A stretch of DNA of 64,000 nucleotides, taken from the NCBI GenBank assembly GCA_017528345.1, contig JAFXOX010000064.1, forward strand, positions 1 to 64,000, given 5' to 3'. This DNA is from Desulfovibrio sp. (GTDB lineage: Bacteria; Desulfobacterota; Desulfovibrionia; Desulfovibrionales; Desulfovibrionaceae). The translations under genes and the position numbers were made by a program. Below are positions 51,216-62,911 of the stretch, piece by piece. Position 1 is the stretch's first letter. Every line of letters starts with the position of its first letter. The notes below the pieces were generated by a model. That model did not search any database. It saw only the letters and a list, made by a program, of their open reading frames with translations, and was not told where the DNA came from.

Positions 51216-52820
51216 TTAAGCGGCCGGTGTTCTTGCATCGGCCGCTTCGTGTTCTGAGAGACCGAGAAGTTTTGTGAGGGTTTGTCGGGTGATCGCGAGG
51301 TCGTTTTGCCGCAGGCTGTTGAGTTTTGCGAGAAGATTTTCAGCCTGTGCTTTGAGGGCTAACGTATCTGCGCTATTGTCGACGGTTAGGTCACAGGCTT
51401 TCGCTTTTTTGGCCTCAGGCCATTGCCAGCTTTCTATAGTGCTTGCCTTGTCCAGACTCCAGCCGCGGTTTTTGGCCAGGCGGGCAAAGCGTTCCCTTTG
51501 AGGGCAGGTGACACAGATACTGAGCAGATCAGGCCTGTTTTGCCAGCCGCATTCAAAGAAAAGTGGTATTTCGGCAAAGGCAACCTCGTGTGAAGCCTGT
51601 TTTGCAAAAAAAGCGTCAAGAGCTGCCTTGACTGTTGCGTGCAACATCTCTTCAAGATCCCGTTTGACAAGGGGGTTCGCCTTAAAGAGGGCAAAAAGAG
51701 CATCGCGTTCTATGTGCCCGTCTACGCTAACGACATCTCTCCCGCCATGATTGCTTAGCCAGCTTGCTACCTGACCGCGCGGAGTGTAGAGCTTTTGAAT
51801 TTCCTGATCAGCACTGAAGACGGCAAATCCCCTTTCTTGAAAGAACTTAGTCAGGCTCGATTTGCCGCTGCCAGGATTGCCTGTGATTACGACCTTTTGC
51901 AGAAGATGCGCGCAGTTCAGGGCTGTGGCATAAAAATCAGCGGGTGGGGCCTTTTGAAAGTGAAGTTCTTCCCCGCTCCAGGGATGGCAGAAGGAAAGCC
52001 TGTAGGCATGGAGCATTTGTCGAGGAGCTTTGGCGGCAATGGGTTTTGGCGCATAGACTTTGTCGCCAAGAAGAGGGTAGCCGAGATTAGCCATGTGAAC
52101 ACGGATCTGATGCGTGCGGCCTGTGTGGATGCGAACACAGATCAGAGATGTCTGTTTGTCAGGTGCCAGCCAGAGACGTCGCCACTGGCTGTGGGCTGTT
52201 TTGCCCCCCTTATTTTCGGGTAGGATAGCCATCTTGATGCGGCTTTGCGGGTCTCGGCCAATGGGGAGCTGGCATTCACCTTCTTCAGGACAGGCGCCGC
52301 TGACCAAGGCAAGATAGTCTTTGGCAATATTGTGCTGGGAAAAAAGCTGACTAAGGGCAAGGCGAGTTTCCTCATCAAGGGCTACAAGCAAGAGCCCACT
52401 TGTATCCTTGTCGAGCCTGTGCACAATGCCAGGTCTGAGTCCCTGCATTGAGGCGAGTGTTGAAAAGTGCGGGAGAAGGCGTTGAATGAGGGTGTCCTTG
52501 GGACATGAAGGACAGGGATGAACAGTCAACCCCGCTGGTTTATTAACAACGCAGAGTCTTTGATCCTCAAAACATATCTCTACGGGTCCTTCTTCGGCCA
52601 CAAGCTGACTCTGACCGTCAGGAAGCCTCAGGCAGATCTCTTGGCCTGTCTTGAGACGGAGGTCTGGCTGCTTTTGGCAGAGGTCTCCGACCTGACACAA
52701 GCCTTGGCGAATGGCCCCTGCGATCTGACTTCGGCTGTGTTGCGGGTTTTTTTCAGCCAAGAAGCGGTCAAGTCTTTTTCCTGTGTCGTGCCCTTCAACC
52801 GTGTAGAAATGCTCAGTCAT
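51216..52820 (-). CDS. RluD-type pseudouridine synthase fused to dephospho-CoA kinase
   Basis: A 534-residue two-domain fusion. Residues 1-60 form an S4 RNA-binding domain. About 80-300 is an RluA/RluD pseudouridine synthase with HRLDKDTSG (catalytic Asp137), and IHTGRTHQIRVHM. From residue 309 the sequence is a dephospho-CoA kinase (CoaE): Walker A TGNPGSGKSSLTKFF, FSADQEIQKLY and EIPLFFECGW. The CoaE half should phosphorylate dephospho-CoA, the last step of CoA synthesis. No stop or frameshift separates the halves. It starts 5 nt after the NlpC/P60 gene on the same strand. Confidence 0.9.
   Translation of the reverse strand: MTEHFYTVEGHDTGKRLDRFLAEKNPQHSRSQIAGAIRQGLCQVGDLCQKQPDLRLKTGQEICLRLPDGQSQLVAEEGPVEICFEDQRLCVVNKPAGLTVHPCPSCPKDTLIQRLLPHFSTLASMQGLRPGIVHRLDKDTSGLLLVALDEETRLALSQLFSQHNIAKDYLALVSGACPEEGECQLPIGRDPQSRIKMAILPENKGGKTAHSQWRRLWLAPDKQTSLICVRIHTGRTHQIRVHMANLGYPLLGDKVYAPKPIAAKAPRQMLHAYRLSFCHPWSGEELHFQKAPPADFYATALNCAHLLQKVVITGNPGSGKSSLTKFFQERGFAVFSADQEIQKLYTPRGQVASWLSNHGGRDVVSVDGHIERDALFALFKANPLVKRDLEEMLHATVKAALDAFFAKQASHEVAFAEIPLFFECGWQNRPDLLSICVTCPQRERFARLAKNRGWSLDKASTIESWQWPEAKKAKACDLTVDNSADTLALKAQAENLLAKLNSLRQNDLAITRQTLTKLLGLSEHEAADARTPAA
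51218..51247 (-). repeat. Twelve-pair inverted repeat between dapB and the RluD-CoaE gene
   Basis: AAGCGGCCGGTG pairs with CATCGGCCGCTT (one G-T) around loop TTCTTG. It overlaps the last codons of the minus-strand gene. A T-run (51201-51207) lies before it on the plus strand, so it is not a classical terminator. It may protect the 3' ends of convergent transcripts. Confidence 0.55.
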
Positions 52821-56264: not shown

Positions 56265-59246
56265 ATGTCAGGACGCAGTATCTATTTTGATCAGCAAGAC
56301 AAGGCCATCCTGACTCTTGTCAACCGCATTCTCGACTCGCCGAAGGGGAAAATCAACCGCCTCTTTGATCCCAATCTTCATCCCCACGGTATCGAAGAAC
56401 TTGTCGCTCCGCCTGTGGAACGCATGGCCTATGCCGTTGTTAATTTGTTGCGCAATCTAGAAGTAGGCGGAGGCCAGGCCGATGACCGCCTTCTAGCTTT
56501 GCAGACGCTCTATGACGAAGTGTTAAACAGCGCCCATTCAGCGTTGCGTCGTAATACAGCGCGTGTGCTCATGCAGATTATGAAAGACATGGTGCGTTCC
56601 CATGGTGATCATGAGACACAGCTGCGTCTGGCCCATGATTTTCGCAGCGTCGTGCATGGTACCCCGCGTATCGTCAGACGCATGCTGTCCCGCTATCATC
56701 TGCCTGAAATGCCGGAGGAATGGAATCAGCTCGCCTTTGACGATCATGTCTACGACGTCAATACCAAGGGCCGCAAAACCCCTACGCATCTGATTATGGA
56801 CGCCTGGATCAAGGGGCTGCGTAGTCTGACCGTAGCCTACGAATATGCTCTTGATCCTGAAGTGGCCCGTGAGATCATGCGAGCCGCAGAAATCACAGGT
56901 ATTAATGTTCGTATCGGTCTTGAATTTCAGGTGCCGTTTTACGGCAACTTTGTGAGTTTTTTCTGGATTCCCCGTGGTTTCAGTTCTAATGAAGACTTCC
57001 TCGCCTTCCTTCACGATCCCAAGCTCGTGGATCTCATGGATAAGGGACGAGAGGTCCTTGCTTGGCGCAAGGAAAGGATTCTCAAACTTTTGGCGTTTTG
57101 GAATGCTGACACTCGACTGAAGATCAGTGAGGATTGGGGAATCCCTGTGCCGGAATTGTCCCCTGAAACCTTTTTGACCTTCTGTCGAGGAGGCAATCCT
57201 TCCCGTCAGCGACTCGCCGAATGTCTGCACCACCATATTTTGCCGTATATGCAGGATTATGCGCAAAAGCTTATAGAACTCGGTGATGACGCTCGTCAGA
57301 AGCTTGAGGGCCTGGATAATCTGACACCAGATGTGCTCATGGATGAATGGCTTTCTTTAGAGCAAGGTTCAGATATGCCTGAAAGCACATCCTTGGACGC
57401 TGCGGCAGAAGCGCCGCAGCTCATGCGCATGACGCCCAAAGAACTGACGCGGCTTTTGAGAAGTATTGCCGGCGGTTACCGTCTTGTCCTGGGCATTACC
57501 GGTCTATCTCGGGAGGATGTTGCGGAATTGCTTTGGGAGACCGAAGGGACTGTCACGCATCTGGAAATTTTCAATATGAAGGGCTGGATAGACGGGCGCA
57601 TGGAGGATATGGAAGAAATTGCCCGCCTGCAGCGAGCGTTAAACCTTGGTCTTGGGCCACGCGTCAAGCAGATTTTGCAGTCCATGGCCGATGATCTTAA
57701 GAATAAGGGAGAGAAAGCTCGCGCTCAAAAATTTCTTTCCATTCTTGGCAATATTCATGCCCTTTGGGAGCATTACAGACACACTCCCCTCAAATCTCGT
57801 CTTGGAACAAGTTCTGTAGGACGTCGCACCTTTGGCATGGGGCTGGTCCTCAGGGATACCCTGCCCAAGCGTGCGCAAAGCGAGCTTGACCGCAAACAGA
57901 TGCTTGGTAAGGATATTCCTGTTTTTTCGCCGGTAGAAGAACATATCATCTATCGGACGCCAGAAAATCCCTCTATTTGGCAGTGTTTTTTGTCTATGTT
58001 TTCCTGGTTGCCGGGTTTGCGTCATCTTGGGATGGAATCACGCAGGGAATGGCGTTTCAGTAGTGATGACTTTCGCATCTGCAAGAAAGGTAATCTCGTC
58101 AATCTTGGTGGAATCAGCCTTTTTCACGGCAACAATCTACGACGGGAAAATCTGAATACACAGAACGTTCATCCGTCCATGTTTTACCTGAATACAAATG
58201 TGATGAACCTGCTAAAGGTTCTGCTTGGCTTTATTCCCGCCTTTTTTTCTTTCTACTTCATGCAGGACTGGTGGGTTTTGGCTTGGTTTGGCGCTTTTAT
58301 TTGGTTCGGCATTACCGGTATTCGTAATGTCCTGCAGATGGTGATGACAGCCAGAGGGGCCTCACGCGGTACCCTTGTGCACTGGACAAAACAGGTCAGT
58401 GTGCCGCGACTTTGTGATTCCCTGATGTATACAGGCATTTCCGTGCTGCTCTTGGAAGTGATGGTTCGTGTGGTGTTGTTGGAAGTTGTGATGGGAGTCA
58501 CCGTGGATGAGTACCCGCTCTTGGTCTATACGGTGCTCAACTGTGTCAATGCCATGTACATTTTCTGCCATAACATCTACCGAGGCTTCCCGCGTCAAGC
58601 TGCCATTGGCAATATCTTTCGCAGCGCCCTGAGTATTCCAATGGCCTCGCTCTATGACCTGCTGCTCAGGCATTTTCTTTTGAGCCTTGGCGTAGCTGAT
58701 CCCGCCATTTATCTTGTGCCCAGTGCTGCCATTATTTCCAAACTCGCCTCGGATACGGTAGCCGCCATCATTGAAGGTTATGCAGACGGTCAGGTCAATT
58801 TGCGCATGAGGCGCTGGGATTACGCAAGCAAGGTTGAAAAGGTCTTTGACTGCTACAACCGCCTTGAACTGCTTTTTCCCCAGGAAAATGCGCTTATCAA
58901 GATCGGCCGAAAAGATGGTTTTTCCGGTGAAAGTACCCAAAAAGTGCAGGAAATTGAGCGTGCCTTTGTGGTCAATTCTCTGGATCTGATGTATTTTTGG
59001 TTTTATCAGCCTAGGGCTCAGGAGGCACTCTGGCAGAAGCTCAAGTCCATGTCCGAGCCGGACCGTATGGTTCTTGCCCGAGCCCAACTTGTGCTTTCAC
59101 GAGAGCATGTCGTGAGTCAGATGCTTGTTGACGGACTGCTGGGAAAGAATTTTTCCAGGCCTTTGGCCTTTTTTCTTGATAAGCACCGGCTTTACCTGCG
59201 TCTTTTCCTGAGATTATGTCGCAAGGCACGTCAGCACGGGCTATGA
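56265..59246 (+). CDS. Large conserved membrane protein of unknown function (993 aa)
   Basis: I do not recognise this protein. Residues 1-600 are soluble and helical, with a part (IMDAWIKGLRSLTVAYEY, then EIMRAAEITGINVRIGLEF) that faintly recalls PHP-type metal hydrolases; the histidine pattern is not convincing. Residues about 655-830 contain five or so membrane helices (FIPAFFSFYFMQDWWVLAWF, GISVLLLEVMVRVVLLEVVM), followed by a C-terminal soluble tail. The ribosome-binding site is weak. It is separate from the BMP gene (divergent) and 39 nt before a HAD phosphatase, so those two may be coexpressed. Confidence 0.75.
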   Translation: MSGRSIYFDQQDKAILTLVNRILDSPKGKINRLFDPNLHPHGIEELVAPPVERMAYAVVNLLRNLEVGGGQADDRLLALQTLYDEVLNSAHSALRRNTARVLMQIMKDMVRSHGDHETQLRLAHDFRSVVHGTPRIVRRMLSRYHLPEMPEEWNQLAFDDHVYDVNTKGRKTPTHLIMDAWIKGLRSLTVAYEYALDPEVAREIMRAAEITGINVRIGLEFQVPFYGNFVSFFWIPRGFSSNEDFLAFLHDPKLVDLMDKGREVLAWRKERILKLLAFWNADTRLKISEDWGIPVPELSPETFLTFCRGGNPSRQRLAECLHHHILPYMQDYAQKLIELGDDARQKLEGLDNLTPDVLMDEWLSLEQGSDMPESTSLDAAAEAPQLMRMTPKELTRLLRSIAGGYRLVLGITGLSREDVAELLWETEGTVTHLEIFNMKGWIDGRMEDMEEIARLQRALNLGLGPRVKQILQSMADDLKNKGEKARAQKFLSILGNIHALWEHYRHTPLKSRLGTSSVGRRTFGMGLVLRDTLPKRAQSELDRKQMLGKDIPVFSPVEEHIIYRTPENPSIWQCFLSMFSWLPGLRHLGMESRREWRFSSDDFRICKKGNLVNLGGISLFHGNNLRRENLNTQNVHPSMFYLNTNVMNLLKVLLGFIPAFFSFYFMQDWWVLAWFGAFIWFGITGIRNVLQMVMTARGASRGTLVHWTKQVSVPRLCDSLMYTGISVLLLEVMVRVVLLEVVMGVTVDEYPLLVYTVLNCVNAMYIFCHNIYRGFPRQAAIGNIFRSALSIPMASLYDLLLRHFLLSLGVADPAIYLVPSAAIISKLASDTVAAIIEGYADGQVNLRMRRWDYASKVEKVFDCYNRLELLFPQENALIKIGRKDGFSGESTQKVQEIERAFVVNSLDLMYFWFYQPRAQEALWQKLKSMSEPDRMVLARAQLVLSREHVVSQMLVDGLLGKNFSRPLAFFLDKHRLYLRLFLRLCRKARQHGL

Positions 59247-59285: not shown

Positions 59286-59969
59286 ATGACACAGGTCTCT
59301 GAACTTTTTCCTCATGGTCTTTTTGGTATAATTTATGACTGTGATGGCGTGATGATCAATTCACGCAATGCCAATAGTCTGTTTTACAACCGGGTTCTGG
59401 CGTATTTTGGGCTGCCTCCCATGACTGAAGCTCAGGAGCATTATTCCTTTATGGCCACAGGGATGCAGGCTCTGCAGCATATTTTGCCAGAGGCTCTACA
59501 CTCTCAGATCCTCGATGTGGTGAAAAATAAGGTGCGCTATCGGGACGTTGTGCCGTATTTAGAGCTGATGCCGCGTTTTAGGGAATTTTTTGAGCGTATG
59601 CAGGCAGCGGGGCTTCATCAGGCCATGTGTACCAACAGAACCTCTGCCGGCTTTGAGGAGATCCTGCGCTTTTTTCATTTTCCCCATGCTTTTGATCCTG
59701 TGATGACCTCCAGTGAGGCATCACCTAAACCCTCACCGCTGGGAACAGAAAAAATTTGCCGTTACTGGGGGGTTGATGGTTCACGCATTCTTTTTGTGGG
59801 AGACAGCTCCTATGACAGGGAAGCTGCGTATGGAGCAGGTGTGCGTTTTGCGGCCTTCAATGCCCGTGGCCTGGCAGGAGATCTTATGGTTTCAGGCTAC
59901 AGCGAGCTTGGCGATTTGCTGACGCCGCTTTTGTCATCTCAGGCCTTTCGTCTGGAATCTAAGCGCTAA
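59286..59969 (+). CDS. HAD-family hydrolase, phosphatase-like
   Basis: A 227-residue HAD hydrolase. Motif I is IIYDCDGVMINSRN (nucleophile Asp in DCDG), motif II CTNRTS, motif III Lys in EASPKPSPLG, and motif IV FVGDSSYDREAA. A helical cap lies between motif I and II, as in phosphoglycolate phosphatase or beta-phosphoglucomutase relatives. No Shine-Dalgarno is visible before the ATG. Substrate unknown. Confidence 0.88.
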   Translation: MTQVSELFPHGLFGIIYDCDGVMINSRNANSLFYNRVLAYFGLPPMTEAQEHYSFMATGMQALQHILPEALHSQILDVVKNKVRYRDVVPYLELMPRFREFFERMQAAGLHQAMCTNRTSAGFEEILRFFHFPHAFDPVMTSSEASPKPSPLGTEKICRYWGVDGSRILFVGDSSYDREAAYGAGVRFAAFNARGLAGDLMVSGYSELGDLLTPLLSSQAFRLESKR

Positions 59970-59992
59970 AACCGAAATCATTCCTGAATTTG

Positions 59993-60021
59993 TTGACAGC
60001 AGAGGGGGGCTCTGCCATACT
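59993..60021 (+). promoter_or_regulatory. Promoter of the yggT-ilv block
   Basis: TTGACA (59993-59998) and CATACT (60016-60021) with 17 bp between. The 110-nt leader before yggT includes a small AGC/GCT hairpin followed by a T-run (60068-60085), which could attenuate transcription. Confidence 0.6.
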
Positions 60022-60138
60022 CAGTTTTGAATACACGTTTTTCTGTTATGGCCTAAAGTCCTGAGAGCTTTGCGGCTTTTTTTATTTTAAGACTGAGTGC
60101 ATTTCTACACGCCATTTCAGCAGGAGAGGAAGCAATTC

Positions 60139-60438
60139 ATGGTGGTGCTTGCCAATACGTTGAGCGCAGTGGCCATGGTCTTGAGAACTGTGCTAGATTT
60201 ATATTTTTGGGTTGTTATAGTCGCCTGCGTGCTTACTTGGGTCAACCCAGATCCTTATAATCCTATAGTTCGTACTATACGGGCACTTACTGAGCCTGTT
60301 TTTATTAAAATACGCCATTGGTTACCCTTTACTTATACCAGTGGTTTGGATTTTTCACCTATCGTAGTTTTGCTCGTAATCAAGCTTGTTGAGAATATTA
60401 TTGTTCAGTCTCTGCTACAGTATGCTGCAGTGATGTGA
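60139..60438 (+). CDS. YggT-family membrane protein
   Basis: A 99-residue protein of two hydrophobic segments: LRTVLDLYFWVVIVACVLTW, followed by the YggT signature NPDPYNPIVRTIRALTEPVF, and a second helix IVVLLVIKLVENIIVQSLL. Family members are linked to osmotic or envelope functions, not defined. The frame starts at 60097, but ATG at 60139 has GAGAGGAAG. A DUF465 gene follows by 23 nt. Confidence 0.9.
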   Translation: MVVLANTLSAVAMVLRTVLDLYFWVVIVACVLTWVNPDPYNPIVRTIRALTEPVFIKIRHWLPFTYTSGLDFSPIVVLLVIKLVENIIVQSLLQYAAVM

Positions 60439-60461
60439 TTAGATTTTAATCGGAGGATGTT

Positions 60462-60692
60462 ATGGATCAGCGTGAAAAAGAACTCTTGGAAAAGTACAAA
60501 GAAACAAACCCTGAATTACGTACTCTCTGGGAAGAACATGTTTTGTATAGCAGTCAGGTTGAAAAACTTGAAGCAAAATCTTTTAGAACACCAACAGAAG
60601 AACAAACTCTAAAGCAACTTAAAAAGCAAAAGCTTGAAGTCAAGACCAATATGATGGGCATTCTTGATAAGCTTAAAAAATCTGAATCCTAG
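60462..60692 (+). CDS. DUF465/YdcH-family small protein
   Basis: A 76-residue, highly charged helical protein (EKELLEKYKETNPELRTLWE, then LEAKSFRTPTEEQTLKQLKK). The family is a coiled-coil of unknown function. ATG follows CGGAGG. ilvB begins 15 nt after the stop, so this gene and yggT share its transcript. Confidence 0.85.
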   Translation: MDQREKELLEKYKETNPELRTLWEEHVLYSSQVEKLEAKSFRTPTEEQTLKQLKKQKLEVKTNMMGILDKLKKSES

Positions 60693-60707
60693 ATCCAAGG
60701 GGGGGTT

Positions 60708-62405
60708 ATGGAACTGAAAGGGACGCAGATTCTCATTGAAACCCTGAAACGTGAGGGCGTGGATCTGTTATTTGGTTATCCTGGAGGCGTCATTATTGAT
60801 CTTTATGACGATCTGCTGAAGAATCCGGATATCCGTCACGTCCTTGTACGGCATGAGCAAGGTGCCGTACACGCTGCAGACGGTTATGCACGGGCCACTG
60901 GTAAGGTCGGTACCTGCCTGGTAACCTCCGGGCCAGGAGCCACTAATACAGTCACCGGTATTGCCACGGCGTATTGTGATTCCATCCCTCTTGTTGTTCT
61001 TACAGGACAGGTTCCCACTAACCTTATTGGCAATGACGCCTTTCAGGAAGTCGATATTGTCGGTATCACCCGTCCATGTACCAAGCACAATTACCTGGTC
61101 AAGGATATCAAGGATCTGGCTTTGACACTACGCCAGGCTTTCTATATTGCCCGTTCGGGTCGACCCGGTCCCGTTCTTGTGGATCTTCCCAAGGATGTTC
61201 TCGTCGGTCATACTGAATTTGTCTGGCCTGAAGAGGTCTATTTGCGCAGTTACAATCCCACCTATAAGCCCAATCTTAATCAGTTGCGGCGAACAGTGGA
61301 GGAATTTGAAAAGGCCAAGAGACCTCTTTTCCTCATTGGTGGGGGTGTTATTCTCTCCAATGCTGCGGAAGAGCTCACCAAATTAGCGGAGAAACTGCAG
61401 ATCCCTGTTACCTATTCCTTGATGGGCATGGGTGGATTCCCTTCCACCTCGGAGCTTTCTTTGGGCATGGTTGGCATGCATGGAACCTATGCCGCCAACC
61501 TGGCCATTAATAATGCAGACCTTCTGGTCTGCGTGGGCGCCCGTTTTGATGACCGTGTCACCGGAAAATTGTCAGCTTTTGCGCCCAATGCTAGAGTTGT
61601 GCACATTGATATCGACCCCACATCCATTCGTAAGAATGTCAAGGTTGATGTGCCTGTGGTTGGCGACTGCAAGCTGGCTCTGAGGGCACTGCTTGAAATC
61701 TGCGACTCCCGTTTTGCTGATCGCAACTGGAAAGAAGGCCATGAGGAATGGCTTAAGACCACGCAGGAATGGAAGAGCAGCAAGCCTCTGACGTACCAGC
61801 AGGAGCCCAACGGTGCCATTAAACCTCAGGCTGTGGTTGAGGCTTTGCGTAAGCTGACCCGTGGTGAGGCAATTATTGTCACCGATGTGGGGCAGCATCA
61901 GATGTGGACGGCTCAGTTCTACTCCTTTACCAAACCCCGTACCTTGCTGACTAGCGGTGGCCTTGGTACCATGGGTTATGGACTTCCTGCTTCCATTGGC
62001 GCACAGTTGGCATTTCCTGATAAGCTTGTTATTGCCATTGTCGGTGACGGTTCCATTCAGATGAACATTCAGGAAATGATTACAGCTGTTTCCAACAATC
62101 TGCCAGTGAAGATCGTGATTTTGAACAACCGTTATCTCGGTATGGTACGGCAGTGGCAGGAACTCTTCTATAATCGGGTCTATGCTTCGACGAATATGGA
62201 AGCCCAGCCTGATTTCGTTAAGCTTGCAGACGCTTATGGGGCAGAAGGCTACCGCATCGAAAAGATGGAAGATCTGGAACGCATGCTGGAACAGGCTCTC
62301 TCCTCTCCCAATACAGCACTCATTGATGTGCGTGTAGAGCGTGAGGAAAATGTCTATCCTATGGTCCCGGCCGGTGCGGCGCTGGATGAAATGCTCTTGG
62401 TATAG
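60708..62405 (+). CDS. ilvB: Acetolactate synthase large subunit
   Basis: IlvB makes acetolactate and acetohydroxybutyrate for valine, leucine and isoleucine. The 565-residue ThDP enzyme has the N-terminal GYPGGVIIDLYDD and EQGAVHAADGYARATGKVG (catalytic Glu), and the ThDP-binding GDGSIQMNIQEM to NNRYLGMVRQWQ. ATG follows an AAGGGGGGG site. ilvN follows by 11 nt. Confidence 0.97.
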   Translation: MELKGTQILIETLKREGVDLLFGYPGGVIIDLYDDLLKNPDIRHVLVRHEQGAVHAADGYARATGKVGTCLVTSGPGATNTVTGIATAYCDSIPLVVLTGQVPTNLIGNDAFQEVDIVGITRPCTKHNYLVKDIKDLALTLRQAFYIARSGRPGPVLVDLPKDVLVGHTEFVWPEEVYLRSYNPTYKPNLNQLRRTVEEFEKAKRPLFLIGGGVILSNAAEELTKLAEKLQIPVTYSLMGMGGFPSTSELSLGMVGMHGTYAANLAINNADLLVCVGARFDDRVTGKLSAFAPNARVVHIDIDPTSIRKNVKVDVPVVGDCKLALRALLEICDSRFADRNWKEGHEEWLKTTQEWKSSKPLTYQQEPNGAIKPQAVVEALRKLTRGEAIIVTDVGQHQMWTAQFYSFTKPRTLLTSGGLGTMGYGLPASIGAQLAFPDKLVIAIVGDGSIQMNIQEMITAVSNNLPVKIVILNNRYLGMVRQWQELFYNRVYASTNMEAQPDFVKLADAYGAEGYRIEKMEDLERMLEQALSSPNTALIDVRVEREENVYPMVPAGAALDEMLLV

Positions 62406-62416
62406 GAGAGTTGGAA

Positions 62417-62911
62417 ATGGATATGCAAAGACATGTACTTTCCGTGCTGGTGGAAAATGAACCCGGCGTGCTCTCCAGGGTGGCAGGCCTTTTCAGCGGT
62501 CGCGGTTTTAATATTGATTCTCTGAACGTCGCACCTGCGTTGGAAAACGGCGTTTCCCACATGACTATCACGACCTACGGTGATTCTGCGATCATTGAGC
62601 AAATCATGAAGCAGTTGCACAAGATCGTGACCGTGATCAAGGTCATGGAATATGCCGATATCCCGGCAGTGGAACGCGAGATGATGCTCGTCAAGGTCCA
62701 GGCGGAAGGCACCATGCGAGGTGAAATTCTGCGTACTGTCGATATTTTCCGCTGTAAGGTCGTCGATGTCAGTGCCACAGAAATGATTATTGAAGCGACT
62801 GGCAACCACGAGAAGCTTGAGGCAATTGTGGATTTACTCCAGCGTTTCGGCATCAAGGAACTGTCGCGGACCGGTTCTCTGGCTATGCGCAGATCAAGAA
62901 AGAACGATTAG
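62417..62911 (+). CDS. ilvN: Acetolactate synthase small subunit
   Basis: IlvN is the regulatory subunit that gives valine feedback inhibition. The 164-residue protein begins with an ACT domain (LSVLVENEPGVLSRVAGLFS and GRGFNIDSLNVAP) and has the typical C-terminal half (GEILRTVDIFRCKVVDV). A TTG at 62411 is in frame; ATG at 62417 has AGGAGAG. A terminator-like hairpin follows the stop. Confidence 0.96.
   Translation: MDMQRHVLSVLVENEPGVLSRVAGLFSGRGFNIDSLNVAPALENGVSHMTITTYGDSAIIEQIMKQLHKIVTVIKVMEYADIPAVEREMMLVKVQAEGTMRGEILRTVDIFRCKVVDVSATEMIIEATGNHEKLEAIVDLLQRFGIKELSRTGSLAMRRSRKND

Follow-up and report, generated by a model that had tools for sequence, protein, structure and literature searches.

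The 64,000-nt stretch of Desulfovibrio sp. DNA analysed here (positions 1 to 64,000 of contig JAFXOX010000064.1, assembly GCA_017528345.1; hereafter the window) encodes a 993-residue membrane protein at 56265..59246 on the + strand, and residues ~155–530 of this protein almost certainly form a PHP-type barrel that is a divergent relative of the PHP proteins. The explanation of the whole protein that we prefer, and hold tentatively, is that a largely demetallated cytosolic PHP barrel binds a phosphorylated ligand and is coupled to an unrecognised membrane domain.

At the sequence level, the protein belonged to no recognised family, as the original prediction had stated. Scans with Pfam and NCBIfam gave sub-threshold matches only, none of them near a cut-off; PDB sequences compared with the protein itself and with a 54-row profile gave nothing significant; and the curated cut-off of PF02811 was not reached, with no PHP match to the protein up to an E-value of 1. 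Genome G000 had PF02811 matches at three places (C28, C48, and C39), none of them at the gene for the 993-residue protein (C14). The structure was predicted with AlphaFold2 from the 54-row alignment, with a mean predicted local distance difference test score (pLDDT) of 81.9 and a predicted template modeling score of 0.75. When this model was searched with Foldseek, there were four PDB matches at E ≤ 0.001, and every one was a PHP protein: BAD_1165 (3e0f, 3o0f) at 5.4e-6, V. cholerae RNase AM (9etk) at 3.6e-5, and CV1693 (2yb1), whose PHP domain is named in passages of PMC9410882, at 6.4e-4. In the VIA-align comparison with 3o0f, 253 of 287 residues were aligned over the model range 155–530, with a Z-score of 18.1 and a root-mean-square deviation of 3.0, and 3e0f was tied at 17.8. 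Rows 1–23 of the VIA-align results were what we take, from their titles, to be PHP proteins or PHP-bearing polymerases, and the best row outside this group was adenosine deaminase (row 24) with a Z-score of 7.0.

The PHP homology of the first half of the barrel was shown by sequence profiles, independently of the structure match. A weak direct sequence match to another gene was found in genome G040 (E 1.9e-4, 34% identity, residues 157–252), and that gene had a PF02811 match at the same place (5.8e-16). In a small set of open reading frames (ORFs) around PHP matches, the family profile found two RNase-AM-like proteins (5.2e-5 and 1.6e-4), and the remainder of the set scored 0.012 or worse. Profile–profile comparison of the family with PHP gave 87.3% and E 3.8e-6; residues 150–260 alone gave 95.3% and a score of 49.4, compared with 7.4–19.6 for 30 column-shuffled controls. 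Structure prediction placed a PHP barrel at ~155–530 and profile comparison supported its first half, both approaches having been proposed in the original prediction.

The AlphaFold2 model showed all three parts that had been described from the sequence, namely an extensive soluble N-terminal portion, a membrane segment, and a soluble tail. The first barrel half, assigned from the model, profiles, and alignment, comprised residues 155–236 (56727..56972, +), with strands at 157–163, 187–193, 214–225, and 228–236. It was followed by a variable helical insertion at residues 242–400 (56988..57464, +; model and alignment), which occupied the same place as the insertion of RNase AM but was longer. 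The second half, residues 404–530 (57474..57854, +), had predicted strands at 405–410, 432–437, and 510–514, together with the conserved residues E434 and G524-M525-G526. Residues 1–152 formed an N-terminal helical region according to the model and alignment (56265..56720, +), with conserved HPHG (39–42), N97, R100, and K107. The HPHG sequence was considered as the first metal motif and set aside because the barrel begins at 155 and model confidence was low at residues 39–47.

Passages of PMC3666897 describe PHP enzymes as binding three metals through nine ligands (H, H, D/H, H, E, H, C/H, D/N, H). For E. coli RNase AM, passages of PMC9410882 give H13, E72, and D255 as ligands of Mn-alpha, E72, H83, and H198 as those of Mn-beta, and D20, H45, and H257 as those of Mn-gamma, and the ligand spacing of the RNase-AM-like proteins in the genomes compared was in close agreement with this numbering. 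On mapping to the window protein, H13 corresponded to H161, the second His of the HxH motif to Y163, D20 to K168, E72 to E220, and H83 to F229; by position, H45 fell at 192–194 (Tyr-Glu-Tyr), H198 near 410–412, and D255 and H257 at 516–518. The codons for ligands 1 and 2, H161 to Y163, thus lay at 56745..56753 (+, from the alignment), that for E220, the counterpart of the metal-bridging Glu72 according to the alignment and passages of PMC9410882, at 56922..56924 (+), and that for S516, the putative place of the Asp ligand (Asp255) in the alignment, at 57810..57812 (+). The window protein clearly retained ligands 1 and 5 only, with no His at the predicted places of ligands 7–9, and did not have the nine-ligand set of an active PHP phosphoesterase or RNase AM.

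This replacement was not confined to the window protein. In an earlier alignment of 109 rows, H161 was invariant, position 163 was Tyr in 61 rows and His in 48, and E220 was kept in 102. The later alignment contained 193 non-redundant rows, of which 187 were type I and six were divergent type II, the two types being split at ~25% identity. The six type-II rows all had Glu at position 168, where 175 of the 187 type-I rows had Lys or Arg, and the best His column past strand 5 had His in just seven type-I rows. On the mapping used, a full three-metal site in the family finds no support in the columns. An ordinary active phosphoesterase is not supported by the alignment, since most ligands are replaced, to a greater extent in the window's clade than in other members, and the window copy is likely not a conventional metal-dependent phosphoesterase. 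Faint PHP-like patterns had been taken in the original prediction as a possible hint of a phosphoesterase; the fold and ancestry were borne out by Foldseek, VIA-align, and profiles, but an ordinary active enzyme was not, because most ligand positions were replaced.

Conservation in the alignment nevertheless indicates that the old metal-site region is selected and not decaying, because among nine regions compared residues 157–192 varied least, with a mean entropy of 0.55 bits and 15 of 36 columns below 0.2. The mean entropy was 1.35 in the membrane domain and 2.32 in the insertion. Gaps aside, D159, H161, D164, G169, K171, D179, K183, and E434 had no substitution in type I and were kept in all six type-II rows, and R170 had one substitution. 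The polar residues strongly conserved in and near the former site were D159, H161, D164, R170, K171, D179, K183, E220, E434, and N437.

Positions 163 and 516 changed together. The four residues at 161, 163, 220, and 516 read H-H-E-D in 110 of the 187 type-I rows, which were 36–47% identical to the window protein, whereas the window's clade (~50% identity and above) read H-Y-E (H-Y-D in one row), with position 516 occupied by Ser, Asn, Gly, or some other residue. Position 516 was Asp in 115 type-I rows. Among all 193 rows, His163 occurred with Asp516 in 115 and without it in 13, Tyr163 occurred without Asp516 in 64 and never with it, and one row had a gap. Because the change is all-or-none, the alignment suggests that residues 163 and 516 share one site. 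Eight Desulfovibrio-type genomes with multiple copies were surveyed in the non-redundant rows, where the matching contig of the named collection, paired through its length, stood in for some copies. In six of them (G013, G021, G035, G005, G027, and G006), one copy read H-H-E-D and the other H-Y-E-(S/N/K); in G026 the second copy alone was present in the non-redundant set, and G248 had three family matches, two of them present in the set, as HYES and HHQA. The window's genome had a single family copy, of the dismantled type.

C-terminal to the barrel, the model and alignment placed a membrane domain with conserved polar residues at residues 641–840 (58185..58784, +), followed by a helical tail at residues 841–993 (58785..59243, +), predicted from the model and loop charges to be cytosolic. 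Transmembrane helices were predicted at 644–666, 670–696, 713–742, 751–773, and 777–807 and at the start of a long helix at 821–870. The loops on the side of both termini had 2, 3, 3, and 4 Lys or Arg residues, and the three opposite loops had 0, 0, and 0. About five helices near residues 655–830 had been proposed in the original prediction; the membrane segment was indeed found there, but the model and the positive-inside rule favored six helices, which is probably the correct number. R687, T723, G724, S726, N762, N770, R786, S829, and E837 had no type-I substitution, gaps aside, and were kept in type II. The membrane domain modeled alone had a pLDDT of 82.9. In comparisons of residues 605–993 with solved structures, the best Foldseek E-value was 0.57 and the best VIA-align Z-score was 6.5 on partial helices; no significant match was obtained, although one may have been missed. 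An internal repeat of three two-helix hairpins was considered for the membrane domain and rejected, its scores being within those of shuffled sequences. Pfam searches with 43 C-terminal domains gave single-member matches only, among which a viral nucleocapsid model (3.7e-4 in one domain) was taken as chance.

The gene itself was confirmed from the ORF, its relatives, and substitution rates. The ORF had an ATG start preceded by a purine-rich stretch, a TGA stop, and no internal stop, and its position, its length, and its rank as the longest gene in the window (here, the longest closed ORF) were all as originally described. In Nei–Gojobori comparisons with its two closest relatives, the synonymous and non-synonymous p-distances were 0.614 and 0.057 (L071) and 0.591 and 0.062 (L072), synonymous differences per site being ~10 times as frequent as non-synonymous ones; in a third comparison (L073) the synonymous sites were saturated, at 0.831 versus 0.185. 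The ORF is a real gene under purifying selection, and a chance ORF is excluded. A survey of its presence, which had also been proposed, found matches at E ≤ 0.001 in 50 of 61 related genomes, a count that includes the source genome; most were full-length, a few were contig-end or split pieces, and none of the listed matches contained a stop. The family was matched in 15 of 148 genomes of the phylum samples, and in 32 of 297 when the membrane domain was the query. With a divergent member as the query, 172 of 340 genomes in the class of genome G220 had matches at E ≤ 0.001, a few of them weak. A one-genome-per-species collection gave 559 pattern matches, of which 494 encoded a family relative, and 80 of these 494 confirmed stretches were kept as the loci set. 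The closest named relatives were from Desulfovibrio metagenome-assembled genomes (MAGs), with 90% identity for one of water-buffalo rumen origin and 89% for isolate RUI329. Listings from an open-access library yielded no account of the family. One in-frame stop per match was reported in seven loci (L154, L160, L198, L199, L200, L204, and L209), and in one Desulfobacteraceae MAG two family genes lay tail to tail, 23 nt apart (L135:54-3389, +, and L135:3413-6790, −).

Within the window, a HAD hydrolase gene (59286..59969, +) began 39 nt downstream of the gene for the 993-residue protein; the HAD survey and neighbor clustering showed that it is not a conserved partner. The HAD survey covered the 69 of 80 loci with at least 900 nt downstream, the other 11 having a short flank or no closed ORF. 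A HAD-like gene was found within 400 nt downstream in six loci, five with family members 74–90% identical to the window protein and one at 61%; in six more loci it lay 0.7–1 kb downstream and in five 4–6 kb away (17 of 69 overall). No HAD-like gene was present in the downstream flanks examined among loci below ~51% identity. The HAD partner that the original prediction had pointed to thus exists as a gene 39 nt away, but a conserved coupling, for which the survey had been suggested, was not seen. ORFs of at least 100 amino acids within 3 kb were also clustered for 79 of the 80 loci, L126 having no closed ORF. The commonest same-strand neighbor within 300 nt was an upstream radical-SAM/BATS cluster, in 12 of 79 loci, and the HAD cluster occurred in six; L053:4429-5907 (+), which encodes a radical-SAM protein bearing a BATS domain, belongs to the former. 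In a separate survey with one glycerophosphodiester phosphodiesterase (GDPD) phmmer query over 101 loci, partly overlapping the set above, 98 of which had a family gene (L031–L050 were left out), three of the 98 loci had a same-strand GDPD gene (PF03009) that abutted the family gene or overlapped it (L211:4425-5195, +, in G220; L253:7442-8182, −, in G406; and L133:11002-11808, +) and lay 615 nt away in L329:2204-3166 (+), making four of 98 in all. The three abutting loci were from two type-II genomes and one Syntrophales contig. This adjacency is a weak hint of a glycerophospholipid connection.

Other genes were observed in passing. Beside the type-II gene of G406, L253:2311-4593 (−) encodes a protein of 760 residues in which pentapeptide repeats are combined with TIR, cyclic-nucleotide-binding, and DUF4388 domains. 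Window positions 59286-62911 (+) contain the HAD hydrolase gene, a YggT-family gene, and, by sequence appearance, genes for the large and small subunits of acetolactate synthase; the HAD, YggT, and large-subunit genes had the same order in L072 and L074. At 51216-52820 (−), one ORF fuses a RluA-type pseudouridine synthase (S4 and PseudoU_synth_2) with dephospho-CoA kinase (CoaE).

From these results we infer the following job for the protein, a phospho-ligand-sensing barrel joined to a membrane domain. A cytosolic PHP-type barrel, related to RNase AM and BAD_1165 and carrying an enlarged helical insertion, would be joined in one chain to a membrane domain of six helices, with a helical tail. 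The barrel would have lost three-metal phosphoester hydrolysis and would bind a phosphorylated ligand through the retained His and Glu and the invariant basic residues, with at most one metal in the relatives with H163 and D516 and probably none in the window's clade. Its role toward the membrane domain would then be one of sensing or regulation, and the membrane domain itself would do the actual work at the inner membrane. Several points weigh against this reading. The second barrel half gave no match to PHP in profile comparison, and its assignment as PHP comes from the predicted structure. Ligands 7–9 were placed from strand order and the 163/516 pattern only. Ligand 4 is ambiguous, since the window has Tyr-Glu-Tyr at 192–194 and the type-I rows have His at 192 in 24 of 187 and at 194 in eight. 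At column 523, which lies nine residues beyond strand 7, 61 of the 187 type-I rows have His and the window has Phe, and His523 could, judging from the alignment, be a displaced ligand in its 61 rows. The joint change at 163 and 516 may represent one event in one clade, in which case the counts are not independent. Neither a constant neighbor nor a conserved operon was found in the 79 clustered loci, and the genes around these and the 98 GDPD-survey loci offered no consistent clue. Finally, the conserved Asp, His, Arg, Lys, and Glu residues could equally build a new active site.

A rival explanation, which we consider rather unlikely, is that the protein is still an active phosphoesterase or nuclease, tethered to the membrane, and that its site has been rebuilt to use one metal or none and is formed by H161, D164, R170/K171, H175, E220, and E434. 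These residues were invariant or nearly so in the type-I rows (E220 least, kept in 179 of 187), which is typical of an active site, and the persistence of H161, H163, E220, and D516 together in 110 of these rows also favors an active enzyme. However, no ligand-type counterpart of the beta and gamma metal ligands (D20, H45, H83, H198, and H257 of RNase AM) was kept by most type-I rows, positions 163 and 516 were changed as well in the window's clade, and H175 was Gln in all six type-II rows. It is also conceivable, though unlikely, that the membrane domain is the unit that converts or transports a lipid-linked or glycerophospho compound, which the barrel positions or senses, with the occasional GDPD neighbor acting on the same pathway. 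This explanation overlaps with the one that we prefer, and the likelihoods that we attach to all of these explanations are not mutually exclusive and do not add up to one. The conservation across types I and II of polar residues in or beside the transmembrane helices is consistent with such a unit, as are the three abutting or overlapping GDPD genes and the fourth 615 nt away, but the examined flanks of 94 of the 98 loci and the window scan had no GDPD, and the membrane domain had no fold match.

A barrel that is a mere structural scaffold inherited from an ancestral enzyme, binding no ligand, has a precedent in the PHP domain of E. coli DNA polymerase III, for which passages of PMC3666897 describe a structural role, with metal ligands lost and the fold retained. 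We consider this quite unlikely for the window protein, since the old active-site region (157–192) is more conserved than a scaffold needs, and such conservation favors binding or new chemistry over a bare scaffold. A functional unit with the downstream HAD phosphatase, which the 39-nt gap on the same strand and the six of 69 loci with a HAD-like gene within 400 nt would favor, is very improbable and already largely refuted, because those six loci were the close relatives at 74–90% and 61% identity and none was a divergent member.

The preferred reading, a largely demetallated sensing barrel, can be set beside known PHP systems. RNase AM/YciV, BAD_1165, and CV1693 (PF02811) share with the window protein a PHP barrel, a helical insertion past the fourth strand, and a Glu after strand 3, with Z-scores of 15.6–18.1 and E-values of 5e-6 to 6e-4 against the model. 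Strand 1 starts with D-x-H-x-H in these proteins and with D-x-H-x-Y in the window protein. They are three-metal hydrolases of ~285 residues, whereas in the window protein most ligands are replaced, the insertion has ~160 residues, and a domain of six transmembrane helices and a tail are added. The PHP domain of the DNA polymerase III alpha subunit of E. coli resembles the window protein in that, according to the passages of PMC3666897 and the VIA-align results, the fold is kept although metal ligands are lost, inside a large protein; it differs in having no membrane domain and in the residues lost, and no sequence match between the two was found.

Extended further, the reading would turn the family into a novel kind of machine in the inner membrane, spread over Desulfobacterota-type bacteria. 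Its PHP barrel, put to a new use, would sense a phosphorylated ligand or hold a single metal, and would gate a membrane domain whose fold is unrecognised and whose polar center is invariant. The pairs in several Desulfovibrio-type genomes, made of an H163/E220/D516 copy and a dismantled copy, would resemble an enzyme and its pseudo-enzyme; this extension is speculative, and we think it rather unlikely to hold in full. The analysis provides a first structural identity and a short residue list for a large, widespread, strongly conserved protein of sulfate reducers and related bacteria, and PHP enzymes gain a membrane-bound branch. The multi-copy genomes offer a natural within-genome comparison between a copy that partly keeps the metal site and one that lacks it. 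In the lineage of the organism studied here, the apparently dismantled metal site suggests a sensing or structural role over that of an ordinary enzyme.

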